In this document: one piece after another, positions 12,721-31,684 of the stretch
Layout of the letters: each line of letters starts with the position of its first letter
Position numbering within the stretch: the stretch's first letter is position 1
Assembly (NCBI GenBank): GCA_016219715.1
Contig: JACRKX010000043.1
Span: forward strand, 1-32,929
Length of the DNA stretch: 32,929 bases
Direction of reading: 5' to 3'
DNA from: Actinomycetota bacterium
GTDB lineage: Bacteria > Actinomycetota > Thermoleophilia > Solirubrobacterales > JACPNS01
Translations under genes and position numbers: made by a program
Notes under the pieces: generated by a model
What the model saw: only the letters and a program-made list of their open reading frames with translations
The model's database searches: none
Told to the model about the DNA's origin: nothing

Positions 12721-15519
12721 GTTCGCTATTCGGCAGGATGCCGCCTATCGGTTCGGCAATGGATTGCGCTTTTCGCGATCGCGACTGCCTGTGGGCTGGT
12801 GACCGCTCCGGCCGACGCGGCGACAGTGGTTTCAGGTGGCGGACACAGCTGCGCCATCGCCCGTTCGGGAAGCGTGATCTGTTGGGGCGCAAACGCCTCT
12901 GGCCAGCTCGGCGACGGGTCGACGACCGCCAGTTCGACGCCGGTGATCGTGCCCTCGTACGTGCCCGAGTCGCTCGACGTGACCGCGCTCTCGGCGGGAG
13001 CCGCGCACAGTTGCGCGCTCGTGGTCGACGGAACGGTCCAATGCTGGGGCGAGAACGGTGCGGGCCAGCTCGGCGACGGCACGACGGCAGATAGCTCGAG
13101 CCCACTGACGGTGGTCGGGGTGAGCGACGCGGTGCAGATCGCGGCCGGTGCGGCGTTCACGTGCGCGCTGCTCGCCGACGGAACGGTGAAGTGCTGGGGA
13201 GAGGGCAGCTCGGGCCAGCTCGGCGACGGCCTAGCAACCGACAGCGGATCGCCGGTGACAGTCAGCTCGCTGACCAATGCCTCACACCTGACGGCCGGCG
13301 ACGAGCATGTCTGCGTCGTGGCTTCGGGCGCCGTTCGCTGCTGGGGCGCCAACGCCAGCGGCCAGCTCGGCGACGGCACCATCATCCAGCGAAACGCGCC
13401 GGTTTCAGTCAGTGGCGTTAGTGGCGTGACCATGGTTTCAGGAGGCACCGCCTTCAGCTGTGCCTTGACGGCCGCCAACGTGAAGTGCTGGGGCGCCAAC
13501 GCCAGCGGCCAGCTCGGCGACGGCACCACCGTGTCGCCGCGTACGACCGCGGTGACGGTCGCGGGGCTTTCCAGTCCGTCCCGTGTTGCCGCTGGCGGCG
13601 CTCATGCGTGCGCCGTCGATTCCACTCCGGCGCTGAAGTGCTGGGGCGCCAACGCCAGCGGCCAGCTCGGCGATGCTTCGACGACGGCGAGCAGCTCGCC
13701 GGTAGCGGTGTCCGGCTTGACCGACGCCGACGCGCTGAGCGCATCGAGCAACCACACCTGTGCGCTCACCGCAACGGGCGGGTTCTATTGCTGGGGAGCC
13801 GGATCCAACGGAGAAATCGGCGACGGCGGTTCGACCGACCGGTCCACGCCGGCGACCGTCAGGGGTACGGCCGGCGGCAAGACGATCGCCAATGGGTCGT
13901 CTCACACATGCGTGGCGCTGAGCGGTGGCAAGGTCAACTGCTGGGGCGCCAACGCGAAGGGGCAGCTCGGCGATACGAGCACCTCGACGGCGACGACTCC
14001 GGTGGTCGCATTCAACCTCTTCAACCTGACCGGCATCTCCGCGGGATTCGCGCACAGCTGCGCCATCGAGAGCGGCGGACAGGCGAAGTGCTGGGGTGAC
14101 AATCAATTCGGGCAGGTTGGGTCTGGCAACTCGACGGCGCAGTTCACGATGGCCAACTCGGTCTCTGGTCTAAGCAACGCGACGCTGATCGACACCGGCC
14201 TCAACTTCAGCTGCGCCGTGACGACGGCAGCTCAGGCCAAGTGCTGGGGCCAGAACGGCAACTACCAACTGGGCGACGGTACGACCACAAACCGCAACGC
14301 GCCGGTGACGGTGTCGGGTCTGTCGAACGTGACGGCGATCTCGGGCGGTGGCACCACCACCTGTGCGATCGTCAGCGGAGGTCAGGCGAAGTGCTGGGGA
14401 AACAACGCCGCCGGCCAGGTCGGTCAGGGCAACACCAACACGCCGGTAACGGCGCCGGCGAACGTCAGCTCGCTGACCGACGCGGTCGCGATCGCCAACG
14501 GCCAGACTCACGCCTGCGCGATCGTCACAGGTGGCGCCGTCGAGTGCTGGGGCTCCAACGACTACGGGCAGCTTGGCGACGGCACGAACACGCAGCGCAC
14601 GACTCCCGTGAGTGTCTCCGGCCTGACCGGCGCAACCGCGATCGCGGCGGGCGATTACCACACCTGCGCGCTCGTGACGTTGGGCGCCGTCAAGTGCTGG
14701 GGCTTCGGGACCAACGGCCGGCTCGGCAACGGCGGAACGTCGAACAGCAACGTGCCGGTCGATGTTTCGGGCCTGCTCGGCGCCGTGAGTCTGTCGGGCG
14801 GCGGGCAGCACACGTGTGCGGTGGTCGCCGGCGGCAACACCTACTGCTGGGGGTACGGACTGAACGGCCAGCTCGGCAACGGCTCGACGGCCGACCGGCT
14901 CGTGCCATATGAGGCCGAGAAGGTGCTCGAAGGTCTGATCAGGATTACGACCCTCTCAGAAGGCTTGTTCACACAAAGCACTCAACCGTCGATCGGCTAC
15001 AGCACGCTCGACGTCATCAGCCCACTGGTCGAGTGCAATCTCGACGGTGCCGGCTACAGCTCGTGCAGCTTCCCGCCCTTCACGCCCGGGTCGCCGCTCT
15101 CGGTCGGCCGTCACACGATGCGGATCAAGGCCGCGCCGAACTTCCTGGGTAACGACGTGATCTCCTACACGAGCCTCAGCTTTGCCGTCAGCGTGGTCCT
15201 GCCGACCGCGACGATCTCGTCGCCGGTGGAGTCCGCTCAGACGGCCGACAGCACTCCCTCGATGACCTTCAGCGCTACTGGAGAAGGCGCTCTCACGACC
15301 GAGTGCCGCGCCGACAGCGGCAGCTGGGCGGCATGCAGCTCGCCGTGGACCTCCGGAGCGCTCGCCGACGGCGCACACTCGCTGGAGCTGCGCGTGACCG
15401 ACGCAAACACGAACACCGCGACCGCGTCGGTGAACATCGTCGTGGACACGGTCATGCCGGACACGACGATCACCGCCAGCCCGGCGTCGCTGTCGAACGT
15501 CACGCCAGTGCCGGATTGA
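12718..15519 (+). CDS. Secreted RCC1-repeat protein, 5' part of a broken giant gene
   Basis: The ORF track starts at GTG 12799, but that cuts a good signal peptide. In the same frame, upstream codons read VRYSAGCRLSVRQWIALFAIATACGLVTAPADAA: basic start, hydrophobic core and ADA-A cleavage site. The body holds 14 units of about 50 residues, each ending in a CWGxNxxGQLGDG-like motif (for example ICWGANASGQLGDG, KCWGFGTNGRLGNG), with a second cysteine in HSCAI/HTCAL. RCC1 propellers have seven blades, so 14 units would give two. After about 14920 come two Ig-like modules (VECNLDGAGYSSC, TECRADSGSWAAC). The third module is cut: the frame shifts at about 15500 and stops at 15519. Partners and role are unknown; related proteins are secreted and probably surface-bound. 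Confidence 0.8.
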   Translation: MVRYSAGCRLSVRQWIALFAIATACGLVTAPADAATVVSGGGHSCAIARSGSVICWGANASGQLGDGSTTASSTPVIVPSYVPESLDVTALSAGAAHSCALVVDGTVQCWGENGAGQLGDGTTADSSSPLTVVGVSDAVQIAAGAAFTCALLADGTVKCWGEGSSGQLGDGLATDSGSPVTVSSLTNASHLTAGDEHVCVVASGAVRCWGANASGQLGDGTIIQRNAPVSVSGVSGVTMVSGGTAFSCALTAANVKCWGANASGQLGDGTTVSPRTTAVTVAGLSSPSRVAAGGAHACAVDSTPALKCWGANASGQLGDASTTASSSPVAVSGLTDADALSASSNHTCALTATGGFYCWGAGSNGEIGDGGSTDRSTPATVRGTAGGKTIANGSSHTCVALSGGKVNCWGANAKGQLGDTSTSTATTPVVAFNLFNLTGISAGFAHSCAIESGGQAKCWGDNQFGQVGSGNSTAQFTMANSVSGLSNATLIDTGLNFSCAVTTAAQAKCWGQNGNYQLGDGTTTNRNAPVTVSGLSNVTAISGGGTTTCAIVSGGQAKCWGNNAAGQVGQGNTNTPVTAPANVSSLTDAVAIANGQTHACAIVTGGAVECWGSNDYGQLGDGTNTQRTTPVSVSGLTGATAIAAGDYHTCALVTLGAVKCWGFGTNGRLGNGGTSNSNVPVDVSGLLGAVSLSGGGQHTCAVVAGGNTYCWGYGLNGQLGNGSTADRLVPYEAEKVLEGLIRITTLSEGLFTQSTQPSIGYSTLDVISPLVECNLDGAGYSSCSFPPFTPGSPLSVGRHTMRIKAAPNFLGNDVISYTSLSFAVSVVLPTATISSPVESAQTADSTPSMTFSATGEGALTTECRADSGSWAACSSPWTSGALADGAHSLELRVTDANTNTATASVNIVVDTVMPDTTITASPASLSNVTPVPD
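12826..14920 (+). repeat. 14 tandem RCC1 units
   Basis: Fourteen copies of a roughly 145-155-base unit encode HSCAI...VKCWGANASGQLGDG-type blades. Some copies are nearly identical at the DNA level: CTGGGGCGCCAACGCCAGCG recurs near 13340, 13490 and 13640. Such identity suggests recent unit duplication or gene conversion and could allow copy-number change by recombination. Confidence 0.85.
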
Positions 15520-15892
15520 TGCGGGCAGCTGGAACAGCTGCACGAGCGCATACGGCCTCGTGCTTGCGGCCGGGTCGCACACGTTCGATGTGCGTGCGAT
15601 CGATCAGGCCGGCAACACCGACGCCACGCCCGCCAGCTACAGCTGGACGATCGACACCACCCCGCCAAACACCTTGATCACCGCCAACCCGGCCACGCTG
15701 ACCACCAGCACCGGCGCATCGTTCAGCTTCACCGCCACAGAGACCGCCACCTTCCAATGCCAGCTAGACGGCGGCGGATACGGCGCATGCACCAGCCCGC
15801 GCAACTACACGTCGCTGACAGACGGCTCGCACACCTTCGACGTGCGCGCCACCGACACCGCCGGCAACCTCGACTCCACCCCGGCCAGTTGA
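15500..15892 (+). pseudogene. Ig-like repeat fragment, middle part of the broken gene
   Basis: In frame 2, out of step with the RCC1 part, this reads QCRIDAGSWNSCTSAYGLVLAAGSHTFDVRAIDQAGNTDATPASYSWTIDTTPPNT and then a full 84-residue Ig-like module up to NLDSTPAS, where a TGA is created by the first copy of a 19-base duplication. No Shine-Dalgarno or start precedes it; the track's GTG at 15560 falls in the middle of a module. It is the continuation of the upstream gene after a loss of 41 bases, and cannot be made as a separate protein with any sense. Confidence 0.75.
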
Positions 15893-16928
15893 CTCCACCC
15901 CGGCCAGTTACAGCTGGACGATCGACACCACGCCGCCCAACACCTCGATCACTGCCAACCCGGCCACGCTGACCACCAGCACCGGCGCATCGTTCAGTTT
16001 CACCGCGACCGAAACCGCCACCTTCCAGTGCCAGCTAGACGGCGGCGGCTACAGCACATGCACCAGCCCGCGTAGCTACACGTCGCTGGCAGATGGCTCG
16101 CACACATTTATGGTGCGTGCGACCGACACCGCGGGCAACGCCGACGCCACGCCCGCGAGCTACACCTGGACCGTCGACACCACGCCGCCAAACACCTCGA
16201 TCACTTCGAACCCCGCGTCGCTGACCAACAGCACAGGCGCATCCTTCAGCTTCACCGCCACCGAGACCGCCACCTTCCAGTGCCAGCTAGACGGCGGCGG
16301 ATACGGCGCATGCACCAGCCCGCGCAACTACACGTCGCTGACAGACGGCTCGCACACCTTCGACGTGCGCGCCACTGACACGGCTGGCAACGTCGACGCC
16401 ACGCCGGCCAGCTACAGCTGGACGGTTGACACAACGGTGCCTGACACCTCGATCACCGTCAACCCGGCCGCGTTGACCACGAGCACCGATGCATCCTTCA
16501 GCTTCACCGCGACCGAGGTCGCCACCTTCCAGTGCCAGCTAGACGGCGGTGGCTACGGCGCATGCACAAGCCCGCGCGGCTACACGTCGCTGGCGGACGG
16601 CTCGCACACCTTCATGGTGCGCGCGAGCGACGCGGCCGGCAACACCGACGCCACACCTGCCAGCGTCACCTGGACGATCGACACGGCGGCTCCCAATACC
16701 ACCATTACGTCCAATCCCGCAGCGTTGTCTGGCAGCACCGGCGCATCCTTCAGCTTCACCGCCACAGAGACCGCCACCTTCCAATGCCAGCTAGACGGCG
16801 GCGGCTACGGCTCCTGCACCAGCCCGCGGGTCTACAGCTCGCTGGCCGACGGATCGCACACGTTCGACGTGCGCGCCACCGACACCGCCGGCAACACCGA
16901 CGCCACACTTGCCAGTTACGGCTGGACG
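15651..16928 (+). repeat. Tandem 252-base Ig-like modules
   Basis: The marker TGCCAGCTAGACGGCGG occurs at 15758, 16029, 16281, 16533 and 16785. The steps are 271, 252, 252 and 252 bases, so the unit is exactly 252 bases (84 residues) and the first step carries 19 extra. The units are close copies at the DNA level, all with IDTTPPNT...SFSFTATETATFQCQLDGGGYGACTSPR...DGSHTFDVRATDTAGN. Each has a cysteine pair (FQC...YGAC). Confidence 0.9.
15872..15909 (+). repeat. Perfect 19-base tandem duplication that breaks the frame
   Basis: GACTCCACCCCGGCCAGTT occurs twice with nothing between (15872-15890 and 15891-15909). Removing one copy restores NLDSTPASYSWTIDTTPPNT in one frame and returns the module spacing from 271 to 252 bases. 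With both copies the reading frame meets TGA at 15890-15892. Confidence 0.95.
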
Positions 16929-18308
16929 ATCGACGCGACCGTGCCCAACGTGCAGATCACCTCGCCGGCCGGCGGTTCGACGCTGGGCGACACCACTCCC
17001 GACGTCTCGTTCACGGCGAGTGACGCGAATGGCGTTACTGTCGAGTGCAAGACCGACGGCGGCCCATGGACGGCGTGCGGCTCTCCGTACACCACGCCGG
17101 CCCTTGCCGACGGAGCGCACGTCGTCTCGGTCCGCGCCCTCGATCCGGCCGGAAACGAAGGGTCAGCGGCGGTCAACTTCACGGTCGACGCGACCTTCCC
17201 GACGGTCTCCATCACCACGCCGGCAAGCGGCTTGGCTACCTCCGACGCGACCCCGACGATCGGCTTCACCGCGAACGGAAGCGGCGCGCTTACGGTCGAG
17301 TGCAAGGTCGACTCGGGAGCGTTCGCGGCGTGCACCTCCGGAGGCTCGCTCGCGACCCTCGCCGACGGTCAGCACACGCTCACCGTGCGGGTGACCGATC
17401 CGCTGGCCCGAGTGGTCACGGCCGATCGTACGTTCACCGTCGACACGAGCGCACCGGCGATCAACTTCGCCTCGCCCGCGAACGGCGCTGTCGCTCAGGG
17501 TCCGGCCCTTGACGTTTCCTTCGGCGTATCTGACGCGACGAGCGTCAGCCTCACCTGTAGCGTCGACTCTTCGCCGCCGGCGGCGTGCTCTTCGCCGTTC
17601 TCGACCGGCGCGCTTTCCGACGGGCCACACGGCGTCACGGTGAACATGGTCGACGCCGCCGGAAACGTAGCCGCCGGAAACGTCAACTTCACGATCGACT
17701 CGACCGCCCCGGCCTTGACGATCGGCTCACCCTCTGCGGGAGCGACCGTCACGACCGCCGTGGCGACGGTCGTCTTCGGAGCGACGGATTCGACCGCCGT
17801 CAGCTACCAGTGCGCGGTCGACGGCGGATCTCCGCAGCCATGCGCATCGCCGTATGTGCCGGCGATCGCCGCCGGATCCCGCACGGTCACCGTCTACGCC
17901 TTCGACGCCGCCGGCAACAGCACGTCGCAGGTGCTGAACTTCACCTTCGCGCCGCCGGCGCCGGCGCCGGACGCATCGCCCTCCACGCCGCCGGTCGGCG
18001 GGGCTCAGACCTACTCGGCCACGCTGACGGCCAAGAAGAAGGCCGGGAAGCTGAGGCTCTCGCTGAAGCTCACGCCGCCGGCCGGAGTCAGCGCAGCGTG
18101 TGCCGGCACAGTGAGCTTCAGCGGGAAGATGCTGCGGGTGAAGGTCGGGGGAACGGCCGTCCTCAAGTCGGTGGCCGGCGCGTGTGTGGCCATGCGCGTC
18201 GCCAAGGTCAAGAAGACGCTGAAGGGCAAGCTGAAGCTGACTGCGACATTTGCCGGCAGTGCGCAGATCGCGCCGGTAAAGACATCCAAGACGTTCAAGG
18301 TGAAGTAG
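16110..18308 (+). CDS. Ig-like repeat protein, 3' part of the broken giant gene
   Basis: The frame is open from just after the duplication (tac at 15909); 16110 is only the first ATG and lies inside a module, with no Shine-Dalgarno, so this is not an independent gene start. It encodes four near-identical 84-residue modules, then four diverged ones (VTVECKTDGGPWTAC, LTVECKVDSGAFAAC, VSLTCSVDSSPPAAC, VSYQCAVDGGSPQPC), each with a cysteine pair that could form a disulfide. A Pro-rich linker (APPAPAPDASPSTPP) leads to a basic domain of about 110 residues (TLTAKKKAGKLRLSLKLTPPAG...KVKKTLKGKLKLTATFAG) with two cysteines. The basic end may hold the protein to the cell wall, which is inference. Confidence 0.75.
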   Translation: MVRATDTAGNADATPASYTWTVDTTPPNTSITSNPASLTNSTGASFSFTATETATFQCQLDGGGYGACTSPRNYTSLTDGSHTFDVRATDTAGNVDATPASYSWTVDTTVPDTSITVNPAALTTSTDASFSFTATEVATFQCQLDGGGYGACTSPRGYTSLADGSHTFMVRASDAAGNTDATPASVTWTIDTAAPNTTITSNPAALSGSTGASFSFTATETATFQCQLDGGGYGSCTSPRVYSSLADGSHTFDVRATDTAGNTDATLASYGWTIDATVPNVQITSPAGGSTLGDTTPDVSFTASDANGVTVECKTDGGPWTACGSPYTTPALADGAHVVSVRALDPAGNEGSAAVNFTVDATFPTVSITTPASGLATSDATPTIGFTANGSGALTVECKVDSGAFAACTSGGSLATLADGQHTLTVRVTDPLARVVTADRTFTVDTSAPAINFASPANGAVAQGPALDVSFGVSDATSVSLTCSVDSSPPAACSSPFSTGALSDGPHGVTVNMVDAAGNVAAGNVNFTIDSTAPALTIGSPSAGATVTTAVATVVFGATDSTAVSYQCAVDGGSPQPCASPYVPAIAAGSRTVTVYAFDAAGNSTSQVLNFTFAPPAPAPDASPSTPPVGGAQTYSATLTAKKKAGKLRLSLKLTPPAGVSAACAGTVSFSGKMLRVKVGGTAVLKSVAGACVAMRVAKVKKTLKGKLKLTATFAGSAQIAPVKTSKTFKVK

Positions 18309-21311: not shown

Positions 21312-22727
21312 TCAGTGCCGTGCGCGGACCACGACGCGCGCGCCGCGCGCGGGGATCATCGTCACGTTGCGGTGCCGGGCGCGCTCTGGTTCGGGCCGGT
21401 CGGCCTCGATGTCGAGCCGTTTGACCATCGCGTCGAAGACCACGCGCTGTTCGGCCATCGCGAGAGATGCGCCCAGGCAGCGGCGTGTGCCGCCGCCGAA
21501 GGGGAACCACTCGTAGGTTCCGGGCTTGCGGCCGGCCCAGCGTCGCGGCTTGAAGGCGTAGGGATCGGGGTAGAGGTCCTCGCGGTGGTGCGTGAGCAGG
21601 ATGCTGGCGGACACGGGTGTGCCTGCCGGTACGCCGAAGTCGCCGATGCGCCAGGCCGACTGTACGCGGCGACCGACGATCGGCACGACCGGACGTGAGC
21701 GCATCGCCTCGTTGATCACGTACTCGATCTGGTCGGCGGCGTCTTCGCGACCGCCGCGGACCGACTCGTAGAGCTCGTCGTAGGCGTCGGGCGTGCGGGT
21801 CAGCCGCTCCCAGGCCCACGACAGCGAGTTGGCCGTAGTCTCGTGGCCCGCGAGCACGAGCGTGACGAGTTCGTCGCGCAGTTCACGGTCGGTCAGCGCT
21901 TCGCCGTCGTCGGCGCGCGAACGCAGCAACATCGAGAGGATGTCGTGCCGGTCGCCGGCGTCGTCGGCTCGGCGCCGGTCGGCGATCACTTCGTAGGTCG
22001 CCCGGTCGAGTATTGAGATCGCCAGCTTGGCGATTCCGACCGGCTCGCTGTGCCCGAGGTTCATCAGCTCCCCGACCTGGGCGATGGCCCAGTTGGACAT
22101 CGTGACGACCTGCTTGGTCGCTTGACGCAGCCGCCACTCGGGTGTGTCGTGCTTCGGACGCCCTTCGATCCCGAAGATTCCCGACATGATTACGTCGAGC
22201 GTGATCGCCTGCATCCGGGGGGCCAGCTGGAATGGCTCACCGACCGGCCAGCGCGCGATCTCGCGTTCGGCCGCCCGCTCGATCATCTGCGAGTAACGCG
22301 CGACGGCGTCGCCGTGGAAGGCCGGAAGCAGCAGCTTGCGCTGGCGCATGTGGCGCTCGCCCTGGGAGGTGAGCACCGAGTTCTCGCCGACGAACGGGCG
22401 CAGTGGCGACTCACCCGTCAGCGACGGAACCAGCTCGGGTGGGGCCGTGAAGAGGGACTTCACGTGGTCGGGGTGGCTGACGACGACCGGCCGGCCGGCG
22501 ATGACGCCGTTGAAACGGAAGACCTCGCCGAGTTCGCGCCTGGCGCGCGATACGAACTGCTCCTGGCGCATCGTGAAGCGCAGGACCTGGATGGCCCGCG
22601 GAAGCTGGATCATCGGCGGCTCGGCGAGCCCCGCGAGCTCGGCGGCATCGATTGGACCGGCTGGCGAGGGCGTGGTGGTGCCCCGGCCCTCCAGTGGCAA
22701 CTCGGTTGCTTCGAGCGTCTCAGCCAT
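21312..22727 (-). CDS. Cytochrome P450
   Basis: Read from ATG 22727 the product is 471 residues; the track's longer start lies inside the divergent TetR gene. The I-helix oxygen-binding motif is AGHETT (293-298), the K-helix ExxR is Glu340-Ala-Met-Arg343, and the heme loop is FPFGGGTRRCLGASLAMAE with the heme thiolate at Cys417. It has no clear membrane anchor, so it is likely a soluble monooxygenase that needs ferredoxin and reductase partners; none is seen in this window. The substrate cannot be told from sequence. The divergent TetR gene and shared palindrome suggest induction by a ligand of that regulator. Confidence 0.93.
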   Translation of the reverse strand: MAETLEATELPLEGRGTTTPSPAGPIDAAELAGLAEPPMIQLPRAIQVLRFTMRQEQFVSRARRELGEVFRFNGVIAGRPVVVSHPDHVKSLFTAPPELVPSLTGESPLRPFVGENSVLTSQGERHMRQRKLLLPAFHGDAVARYSQMIERAAEREIARWPVGEPFQLAPRMQAITLDVIMSGIFGIEGRPKHDTPEWRLRQATKQVVTMSNWAIAQVGELMNLGHSEPVGIAKLAISILDRATYEVIADRRRADDAGDRHDILSMLLRSRADDGEALTDRELRDELVTLVLAGHETTANSLSWAWERLTRTPDAYDELYESVRGGREDAADQIEYVINEAMRSRPVVPIVGRRVQSAWRIGDFGVPAGTPVSASILLTHHREDLYPDPYAFKPRRWAGRKPGTYEWFPFGGGTRRCLGASLAMAEQRVVFDAMVKRLDIEADRPEPERARHRNVTMIPARGARVVVRARH

Positions 22728-22735
22728 AAGATTGG

Positions 22736-22748
22736 AGTGTAGACTACA
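22736..22748. promoter_or_regulatory. Shared P450/TetR control site: palindrome with two -10 hexamers
   Basis: TGTAGACTACA (22738-22748) is a perfect palindrome around a central A, in the 36-base gap between the divergent starts. A - strand TACACT (22736-22741) lies eight bases from the P450 ATG, and a + strand TAGACT (22740-22745) lies 18 bases from the TetR ATG. Both overlap the palindrome, so a bound repressor would block both promoters. Binding by the adjacent TetR is inferred. Confidence 0.5.
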
Positions 22749-22763
22749 AAAGATGGACTCGCT

Positions 22764-23417
22764 ATGACGACGGTTACTCCTAACAAGCGCGGGCTCCGAT
22801 CTCGTGAGGCCGTGCTCGACGCGGCCGAACGGGTCATGGCCGAGCGCGGCTACGAGGCTGCGACGATCACCCGCATCGTCGAGCTCTCGGGAGTTCCGAT
22901 GAGTTCGGTGTATCACTACTTCCAGTCGAAGGACGGCGTCCTGCTCGCGGTGCTGGAGCGCGGTGCGGCGCGGTTCATCGCTTCGCTCGACCTGCCGGCC
23001 GAACCGCTCGGCGATCCTTACGAGCACGCGTCGGCGATGTCGGCGAGGCTTGCGTCGGCCCTCGCGGACAATCCATGGTTCCTACGTCTGCTGATCGTCC
23101 TTGCTGTCCAGCCTCGTGGCGAGCGCGACCCCGAGGCAGACGCAACAATCGAGCGAGCGCGCGTGGCCGCCCTGAGCGCGATCCGCGAGCAGATCGCCGT
23201 GGCGGCGGGCATCGATGCCGAGGCTCCCGCCGCCAGACAGCTCGCGCTGTTCGCCCTGGCGATCTTCGACGGCGCATTCATCGCGTCTCAGCCCGATTCT
23301 CCTGACGCGCTGGCGGCCGTCCTCGATCTGCTGCCTGACGCGATGCTGGCCGCCGCGGCAAGACTGCTCGATGGCGTCTCCGGCGCCGCCGTCAGTCCAG
23401 CAGGGCGATCGTCTTGA
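22764..23417 (+). CDS. TetR-family transcriptional regulator, divergent from the P450
   Basis: The 217-residue product has an N-terminal TetR helix-turn-helix at about residues 13-58 (REAVLDAAERVMAERGYEAATITRIVELSGVPMSSVYHYFQSKDGVLLAVLE), with the usual sequence around the recognition helix. The rest is a helical ligand-binding part with no recognisable ligand class. It is divergent from the P450 and probably controls it and itself through the TGTAGACTACA site. Its 3' end overlaps the convergent dacB end by 26 bases. Confidence 0.93.
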   Translation: MTTVTPNKRGLRSREAVLDAAERVMAERGYEAATITRIVELSGVPMSSVYHYFQSKDGVLLAVLERGAARFIASLDLPAEPLGDPYEHASAMSARLASALADNPWFLRLLIVLAVQPRGERDPEADATIERARVAALSAIREQIAVAAGIDAEAPAARQLALFALAIFDGAFIASQPDSPDALAAVLDLLPDAMLAAAARLLDGVSGAAVSPAGRSS

Positions 23418-29954: not shown

Positions 29955-31001
29955 ATGCTCGCCGTAACGTCACACGGATTGAAGGACATGCGCGTCGAGG
30001 ACGTGCCGCGGCCCGGCCTCGAGCAGTCGACCGACGCGATCGTGCGCGTCACCACCGCGGCGCTGTGCGGCTCGGACATGCACATCTACCACGGCAAGGT
30101 TCCCGCCGTCCCCGACGGTTGGGTGGTCGGTCACGAGTTTTGCGGCGTAGTCGAGGATGTGGGCGACGCCGTCACCGGCATCAAGCCCGGTGACCGTGTG
30201 GTGGCGGCCATGTACACGGCCTGTGGCCACTGCGCCGCTTGCGTAGCCGGCGACCACCGCCGTTGCAAGAGCTTTGCGATGTTCGGTTTCGGCGAGGCGT
30301 GGGGCGGGCTGCAGGGCGGTCAGGCCGAGTACGTTCGCGTGCCGCTAGCGGACATGACTCTGCGTGCGATCCCCGAGGGATTGAGCGACGAGTCGACGAT
30401 CTTCACCGGCGACATCCTTGCCACGGCCTTCACGGCGCTGCGCCAGGCGGCCGTGCGCGAAGGCGACTTCATCGCGATCGTCGGTGCCGGCCCGGTCGGC
30501 CAGCTGATCGCTATGTGCGCGCCGCTATTCGGCGTCGCGCGCGCCTTCATCATCGACATCGTGCCCGAACGGCTCGCCGAGGGCGCGGCCCTGGGTGCGG
30601 TGCCGATCGACTCGCGAACAGAGAGCCCGCGCAAGATCATCAAAGAGCAGACCGGGGGCGAGATGTGCGACGCCGTGTTCGAGGCCGTCGGCAACGCTCC
30701 GGCGCTTCAGACGGCGTTCAGCCTGCCGCGCCCCAACGGCGTGGTTGCGCTCGTTGGCATGCCTCTGGGCGAGGACTTCCCGCTCTCGGCCGGCGACGCC
30801 TGGCTGCGCAACACGAAGATCGTCCCGGTGCTCGGGGCGCCGTTCGCGCACCGCGACGAGCTGCTGCGGCTGATCGCGGCAGGCAAGATCGACGCCGCCG
30901 GAATCATCACCGACCGCATTCCGCTGGCCGGCGCCACTGAGGCCTACCGCGCCTTCGACGACAAAGAAGTGCAGAAGGTCGTCTTCGAGGTGTCGAAGTG
31001 A
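29955..31001 (+). CDS. Zinc-dependent alcohol dehydrogenase (MDR superfamily)
   Basis: The 348-residue product is a medium-chain zinc dehydrogenase. Catalytic zinc ligands are Cys38 (ALCGSDMHIYHG), His60 and Glu61 (VGHEFCG). A structural zinc site is given by Cys90, Cys93, Cys96 and Cys104 (CGHCAACVAGDHRRC). The cofactor motif VGAGPVG near residue 175 is followed by an acidic strand end (IIDIVPERLA), which suggests NAD rather than NADP. The track's 475-residue version starts in another gene and is extended artificially. The stop overlaps the following TetR start as GTGA, so they are coupled. The substrate is not evident. Confidence 0.92.
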   Translation: MLAVTSHGLKDMRVEDVPRPGLEQSTDAIVRVTTAALCGSDMHIYHGKVPAVPDGWVVGHEFCGVVEDVGDAVTGIKPGDRVVAAMYTACGHCAACVAGDHRRCKSFAMFGFGEAWGGLQGGQAEYVRVPLADMTLRAIPEGLSDESTIFTGDILATAFTALRQAAVREGDFIAIVGAGPVGQLIAMCAPLFGVARAFIIDIVPERLAEGAALGAVPIDSRTESPRKIIKEQTGGEMCDAVFEAVGNAPALQTAFSLPRPNGVVALVGMPLGEDFPLSAGDAWLRNTKIVPVLGAPFAHRDELLRLIAAGKIDAAGIITDRIPLAGATEAYRAFDDKEVQKVVFEVSK

Positions 31002-31684
31002 GCGGCGAAACCCCGCCACCGCAGGCCGGGCAGGCCGTACGCCGCCGCCTCTCGCGAAGCGAGCGACACGACCTGATCCTCGAGCACGCGATCACTGTGT
31101 TCGGCACGCGCGGGTACCACAACGTGTCGATGGACGACATCGCCGAGCACGCGGGTATCTCCAAGGCCCTCGTCTACCAGCACTTCGAGAGCAAGGACGA
31201 CCTCTACATGGCCGTCATCAACTCGTTCATGCAGGAGCTTGGCGAGAAGGTGCTGCCGGCCTGGGCGCAGGATCTGCCGCCGTCGGAGCGGTTCTGGCGC
31301 GGATTCGTGGCGTTCTTCGACTTCATCGACGAGAACCGCAAGGCGTGGGGCGTGCTCTACCGCGACGCCGTCGAGATCGACGACGCTCTCGTCAAGGGCA
31401 TCCACACGCTCAATGCTGAGATGGCCGAGCACATCGCCGCCGTCTTCGAGGCCGAGCTTGCCAATCGCGAGGTCAGTCCGCTGCTGCACCAGTACGCCAG
31501 AGTCGCCGGCCACGCCGTCGTCGGCGCCTGCCACGCGCTCGCCGACTACTGGCTCGACCACCCCGAAGAGACGCGGCTGCGCATGGCCTCGACTGCCATG
31601 GCGGTGCTCTGGCAGGGCTTTGACCAGTTGATCGAGCGCGGCGAGCCGTGGCTGCCGACGCCGGAGATGTTGAAGGACCTCTAA
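30998..31684 (+). CDS. TetR-family transcriptional regulator, coupled to the dehydrogenase
   Basis: The 228-residue product starts with GTG overlapping the dehydrogenase stop. After a Pro/Gln/Arg-rich start, the DNA-binding domain is at about residues 20-66 (RSERHDLILEHAITVFGTRGYHNVSMDDIAEHAGISKALVYQHFESKDDLYMAVIN). The C-terminal part is helical with WGVLYRDAVEIDD and LADYWLDHPEETRLRMA. It probably controls its own operon (unknown protein, dehydrogenase, itself). No strong palindrome was found at that operon's promoter. Confidence 0.93.
   Translation: MSGETPPPQAGQAVRRRLSRSERHDLILEHAITVFGTRGYHNVSMDDIAEHAGISKALVYQHFESKDDLYMAVINSFMQELGEKVLPAWAQDLPPSERFWRGFVAFFDFIDENRKAWGVLYRDAVEIDDALVKGIHTLNAEMAEHIAAVFEAELANREVSPLLHQYARVAGHAVVGACHALADYWLDHPEETRLRMASTAMAVLWQGFDQLIERGEPWLPTPEMLKDL

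Follow-up and report, generated by a model that had tools for sequence, protein, structure and literature searches.

Gene arrangement and gene identities

In the window (the whole stretch of DNA analysed, 32,929 nucleotides, from a draft assembly of 86% completeness and 4% contamination) a cytochrome P450 gene (21312–22727, − strand; 471 aa) and a gene for a TetR-family regulator (22764–23417, + strand; 217 aa) are read away from each other. The P450 was assigned by its PF00067 domain (192 bits) and the cysteine haem-ligand signature FGGGTRRCLG, the regulator by its N-terminal TetR_N helix-turn-helix (PF00440; 52.4 bits, cut-off 24). The P450 ATG (complement of 22725–22727) is backed by orthologue alignments that begin at query residues 2–21, and the TetR ATG (22764–22766) by orthologue N-termini (MTTVTPNKRG vs MATDVTPNRRG); the divergent control region between them (22728–22763, AAGATTGGAGTGTAGACTACAAAAGATGGACTCGCT) is exactly as long as the 36 bases given in the first-pass annotation. 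A weak possible ribosome site, GGA (22755–22757, + strand), stands in the sequence 6 nt 5' of the TetR ATG.

No C-terminal family of Pfam was found in the regulator at E 0.001, and neither protein reached a curated NCBI family cut-off; assignment of the TetR to a named equivalog (ScbR, FadR, KstR, AcuR and others) was tried and rejected, the best being the ScbR family with 52.2 bits vs an NCBIfam cut-off of 150. The nearest solved structures by sequence were PDB 5d18 and 6a4l (~97 bits, residues 7–182), which we take to be TetR proteins of the Rv0302 type.

The 3' end of the TetR gene overlaps by 26 bp (23392–23417) the 3' end of a convergent gene for an S13 D-Ala-D-Ala carboxypeptidase. Elsewhere in the window, a second TetR-family gene (30998–31684, + strand; PF00440, TetR_C_46) overlaps the end of the preceding zinc-type alcohol dehydrogenase gene (to 31001), and an RCC1-type repeat protein (12799–15519) is followed by ORFs 15560–15892 and 16110–18308 that have Ig-like repeats of the kind it has itself; this stretch (12799–18308, + strand) may be a single large gene that frameshifts in the repeats, or errors in their assembly, have split.

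Orthologues of the regulator

Four further genomes of the order yielded TetR orthologues of 51–52% identity (G100, G083, G124 = L031, G229 = L032); the contig of L032 is titled Bifidobacterium breve, its sequence is identical to G229 of the window's order, and the record name looks wrong. Among 399 genomes searched across the class, no orthologue was found besides the five of the order, and one further relative was weaker (G217, 39% identity); a plasmid collection gave no relative at E 1e-20. In G100 and G083 the regulator faces a gene for an FAD hydroxylase, and the gaps carry ATTGGAGCGTAGACTACAAAA and ATTTGGAGTGTCAACTACAAAA. Neighbours of the TetR relatives encode MhpA-like hydroxylases, catechol 2,3-dioxygenase-like enzymes, acetaldehyde dehydrogenase and hydroxy-oxovalerate aldolase; a P450 adjoins this regulator in the window only, the relatives' regulator standing by aromatic hydroxylase and meta-cleavage genes. 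An MhpA-like hydroxylase was not found in the window's own genome (86% complete; search run without a positive control).

The conserved 18-bp element

Directly 5' of four of the five TetR orthologues found in the order, boxes resembling TTGGAGY-N4-RCTACAR were located. In the window this predicted operator, defined by comparison, is TTGGAGTGTAGACTACAA (22732–22749, + strand; axis 22740/22741), i.e. TTGGAGT-GTAG-ACTACAA, an imperfect inverted repeat close to the regulator's own gene and kept with its orthologues, as is usual in the TetR family; seven of nine base pairs of the repeat match in the window and 4–6 in the other boxes. Invariant in the nine boxes compared were TTGGAG (22732–22737) and CTACA (22744–22748), the centre being variable.

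The pattern TTGGAGYGTNNACTACAA was met without mismatch in 3 of 101 genomes, which were the three with TetR orthologues known at that time. The relaxed pattern TTGGAGYNNNNRCTACAR gave seven exact matches in 232 genomes, five immediately 5' of TetR orthologues (G000, G100, G083 twice, G124) and two within coding sequence; the consensus was built partly from the loci so counted, G124 being the only independent test. There, with the consensus drawn from three other genomes, the 8.6-kb locus held four matches at ≤3 mismatches vs 0.005 expected: a single site before the regulator accounts for two of them, being read on both strands, and the others are two sites before the MhpA-like hydroxylase gene; 26 bp from the site before the regulator is a second, weaker one (4 mismatches). 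Matches at 2 mismatches were background everywhere, and in the window's own genome the 36-bp gap holds the sole site with 0–1 mismatch. Tandem boxes exactly 26 bp apart precede three TetR orthologues (L002, L003, L031), which suggests two dimers in the relatives; the window has one box. A possible left half-site, TTCGAGCGT, at 22710 in the P450 coding region was not credited. The TetR orthologue of G229 is an unexplained exception: no site within 4 mismatches was found in 16 kb, and its presumed recognition-helix residues match.

The operator had earlier been placed on an 11-bp palindrome, TGTAGACTACA (22738–22748), overlapping TACACT and TAGACT; all three elements are indeed present where they had been reported, the palindrome lying inside the 18-bp element. 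The window contains 70 perfect 5+1+5 palindromes; one arose in 1.9% of shuffles of the 36-bp gap, and any palindrome with 5-bp arms and a spacer of 0–4 bp in 7.9%, and because 2–8% of shuffled gaps have one the 11-mer is weak evidence alone. It is perfect in one of the nine boxes (the window's own), pairs at 4 of 5 positions in G100 and at 2–4 of 5 in the other seven, and a search of the literature for the exact 11-mer gave one paper, an unrelated one on Drosophila. That the palindrome, with its axis at 22743, is itself the operator is thus very improbable, in spite of its perfection in the window and near-perfection in G100: the conserved TTGGAG falls outside it, and the relatives keep the larger element, whose axis lies 2.5 bp leftward. 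Because the fixed bases are TTGGAG and CTACA and the perfect 11-mer is confined to the window, the 18-mer was taken as the predicted operator. Hardly any weight was left for palindrome and box being chance products of a short AT-rich gap; the shuffle frequencies would allow this for the palindrome, but the 18-mer co-occurs with the regulator across genomes, which already contradicts it. The 18-bp element, not the palindrome, is the predicted site that goes beyond chance, being conserved in relatives.

Promoters and transcript starts

A strict sigma-70 scan gave no promoter in the gap, and the −35 positions of both putative promoters match the consensus at 3 of 6 bases. The putative −10 of the P450, TACACT (22736–22741, − strand), lies 8 nt 5' of the ATG; that of the TetR gene, TAGACT (22740–22745, + strand), would give a start near 22752 and a leader of ~12 nt. 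The two hexamers share 22740–22741.

The assignment of TACACT gained backing from P450 orthologues: TANNNT ending 5–11 nt before a candidate start was found at 11 of 30 P450 loci, 29 of them orthologues and one the window's own (shuffles, 3.9 ± 1.8, with 0 of 1000 reaching 11), and of the same-genus P450 genes those of G001 and G003 have TACACT 10 nt before the ATG and that of G004 has it with a later ATG. By the usual −10 spacing transcription would start near 22729, which makes a leaderless P450 mRNA, or one with a ~2-nt leader, a reasonable prediction; the leaderless message proposed in the first-pass annotation agrees with the −10 spacing in part of the P450 orthologues, the leaderless type of spacing being confined to that part. 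TAGACT is present at the place reported for a regulator −10, but the orthologous boxes do not keep it, and position is what speaks for that role; a regulator promoter inside the P450 coding sequence is conceivable.

Ancestry and location of the P450 gene

The window P450 groups with the same-genus P450s of G001, G003 and G004 (tree support 99/99); these three genomes are without this regulator, and their P450 sits at another locus, near a gene for a small membrane protein. In the window's own genome, contig C61 shows that membrane-protein neighbourhood without a P450 and with a diguanylate-cyclase-like gene next in line instead. The P450–TetR pair of the window is placed between ligA and the S13 peptidase gene; the spacing of these two genes is 16 bp in G004, 26 bp in G001 and ~400 bp in G003, and no match to either gene was found in G002. 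On these sequence comparisons the P450 is a product of vertical descent within the genus that has been relocated.

P450 promoters of the relatives often bear another dyad at the −10 (e.g. TTACACTNNTTGRTGTMA), which is absent in the window. Upstream of the P450 orthologues of loci L125–L153 many share a different dyad over the −10 (e.g. TGACACCGATNNRTGTAAC or GTTACACTNNTTGGTGTCATG), often with no TetR gene within the 1.5-kb flanks. A TetR gene is nearby (1.5-kb flanks) at 2 of the 29 other P450 loci; G160 (L138, ~1370–1450) has an independent divergent TetR–P450 pair with a TetR of another type, in which GTGTAGCTTTACAC covers TACACT.

It appears that the P450 gene has come under the control of a regulator with relatives that serve another pathway; the succession of steps we infer, and the regulator may have arrived by transfer. 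The chances seem evenly balanced that the P450 became the neighbour of a TetR of different lineage, shed the dyad that had overlapped its −10 and adopted the box of that TetR, a regulator of an aromatic regulon thus coming to control a single P450. If this is true, the locus is a regulatory capture of recent date: one sensor exchanged the class of enzyme that it governs, flavin hydroxylase giving way to P450.

Proposed regulation

From the gene arrangement, the conservation of the predicted operator and its link to the regulator, and the ancestry and changed location of the P450, all read in the sequence, we infer binding, repression, transcript starts, a ligand and an order of evolutionary events as follows. 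A TetR dimer would bind the 18-bp imperfect inverted repeat and cover both TACACT and the putative TAGACT, keeping RNA polymerase off both promoters, so that the regulator would repress itself and the P450; both promoters would open once the dimer is released, probably by a small ligand. As the hexamers have two bases in common, the promoters could not be occupied together and would be mutually exclusive. The P450 mRNA would begin at the ATG or within ~2 nt of it. The module would date from a move of the genus's P450 out of its usual locus and into the interval flanked by ligA and the S13 peptidase gene, beside a TetR with relatives that govern aromatic hydroxylase and meta-cleavage genes. Autoregulated dual repression is likely, and a ligand may induce the module. 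The operator takes up 18 of the 36 bp, the middle half of the gap, and therefore, no matter which hexamers are the true ones, every promoter that starts in the gap would be overlapped by the bound dimer; the earlier suggestion that one dimer could silence both genes is in keeping with this conserved, regulator-linked predicted operator. Taken as a whole, a compact divergent promoter under the neighbouring TetR, with one operator, dual repression and a relocated P450, is the probable reading.

Two other readings accept the box and differ in what it does to the P450. The regulator may be autoregulatory through the box with the P450 controlled mainly otherwise (constitutively, or by a regulator in trans as in the relatives), as might be expected from the 27 of 29 P450 orthologues outside the window that have no TetR gene in their ~1.5-kb flanks and from the different −10 dyad, TTACACTNNTTGRTGTMA, of several of them; the window is without that dyad, however, and the regulator's box covers the predicted −10 and comes within 4 nt of the P450 ATG, so this reading was judged unlikely. 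Less probable again is a regulator that acts on the P450 promoter as an activator or in a dual capacity: some TetR-family proteins do activate, and the −35 matches are weak, but a box over the predicted −10 and start is in a polymerase-blocking position, and the precedents SAV576 and EdcR repress. Dual repression from one operator is accordingly retained as the preferred reading.

Meaning of the predicted module

An uncharacterised TetR subfamily gains a concrete predicted operator. Its ligand is predicted to be an aromatic compound, or an intermediate, like those processed by the relatives' meta-cleavage clusters, and this prediction offers an initial clue to what may be the substrate or inducer of an orphan P450 group found widely in the order. 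The locus cleanly illustrates the apparent rewiring of an enzyme gene to another regulator through relocation, and the minimal 36-bp two-way promoter is a possible compact biosensor part.

Comparison with known systems

The arrangement is an ordinary kind of bacterial switch. TetR regulators as a rule have short divergent gaps: in a mycobacterial survey most divergent TetR regulators lay ≤200 bp from the neighbouring gene and, as in the window, had a predicted palindromic motif in the gap and enzymes as common targets (PMC4482099). In Streptomyces avermitilis the TetR protein SAV576 acts through palindromic sites in the shared region to repress both its own gene and the divergently read P450 gene SAV575 (PMC3742746); the likeness of the window extends to the divergent TetR and P450 genes, repression here being predicted. 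The intergenic region of SAV576/SAV575 is, however, 900 bp long with three 15-bp sites CCRTACRVYGTATGS, the transcripts have leaders of 87 and 405 nt, and the enzyme is the P450–reductase fusion CYP102D1 (PMC3742746); in the window the gap is 36 bp, the single 18-bp site is unrelated in sequence, and the P450 message is predicted to be leaderless. The catabolic cluster of Caenibius tardaugens to which the TetR repressor EdcR belongs also includes a P450; EdcR's predicted palindromic operator, kept in one relative, overlaps the −10 elements of its targets and, in a less conserved form, its own, but EdcR serves an estradiol regulon of several operons through the operator TnnCnnTACnAnTnGTAnnGnnA (PMC8700777). 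The switch architecture is thus already known from SAV576/SAV575 and EdcR, and what is of greater interest in the locus is its history of rewiring.
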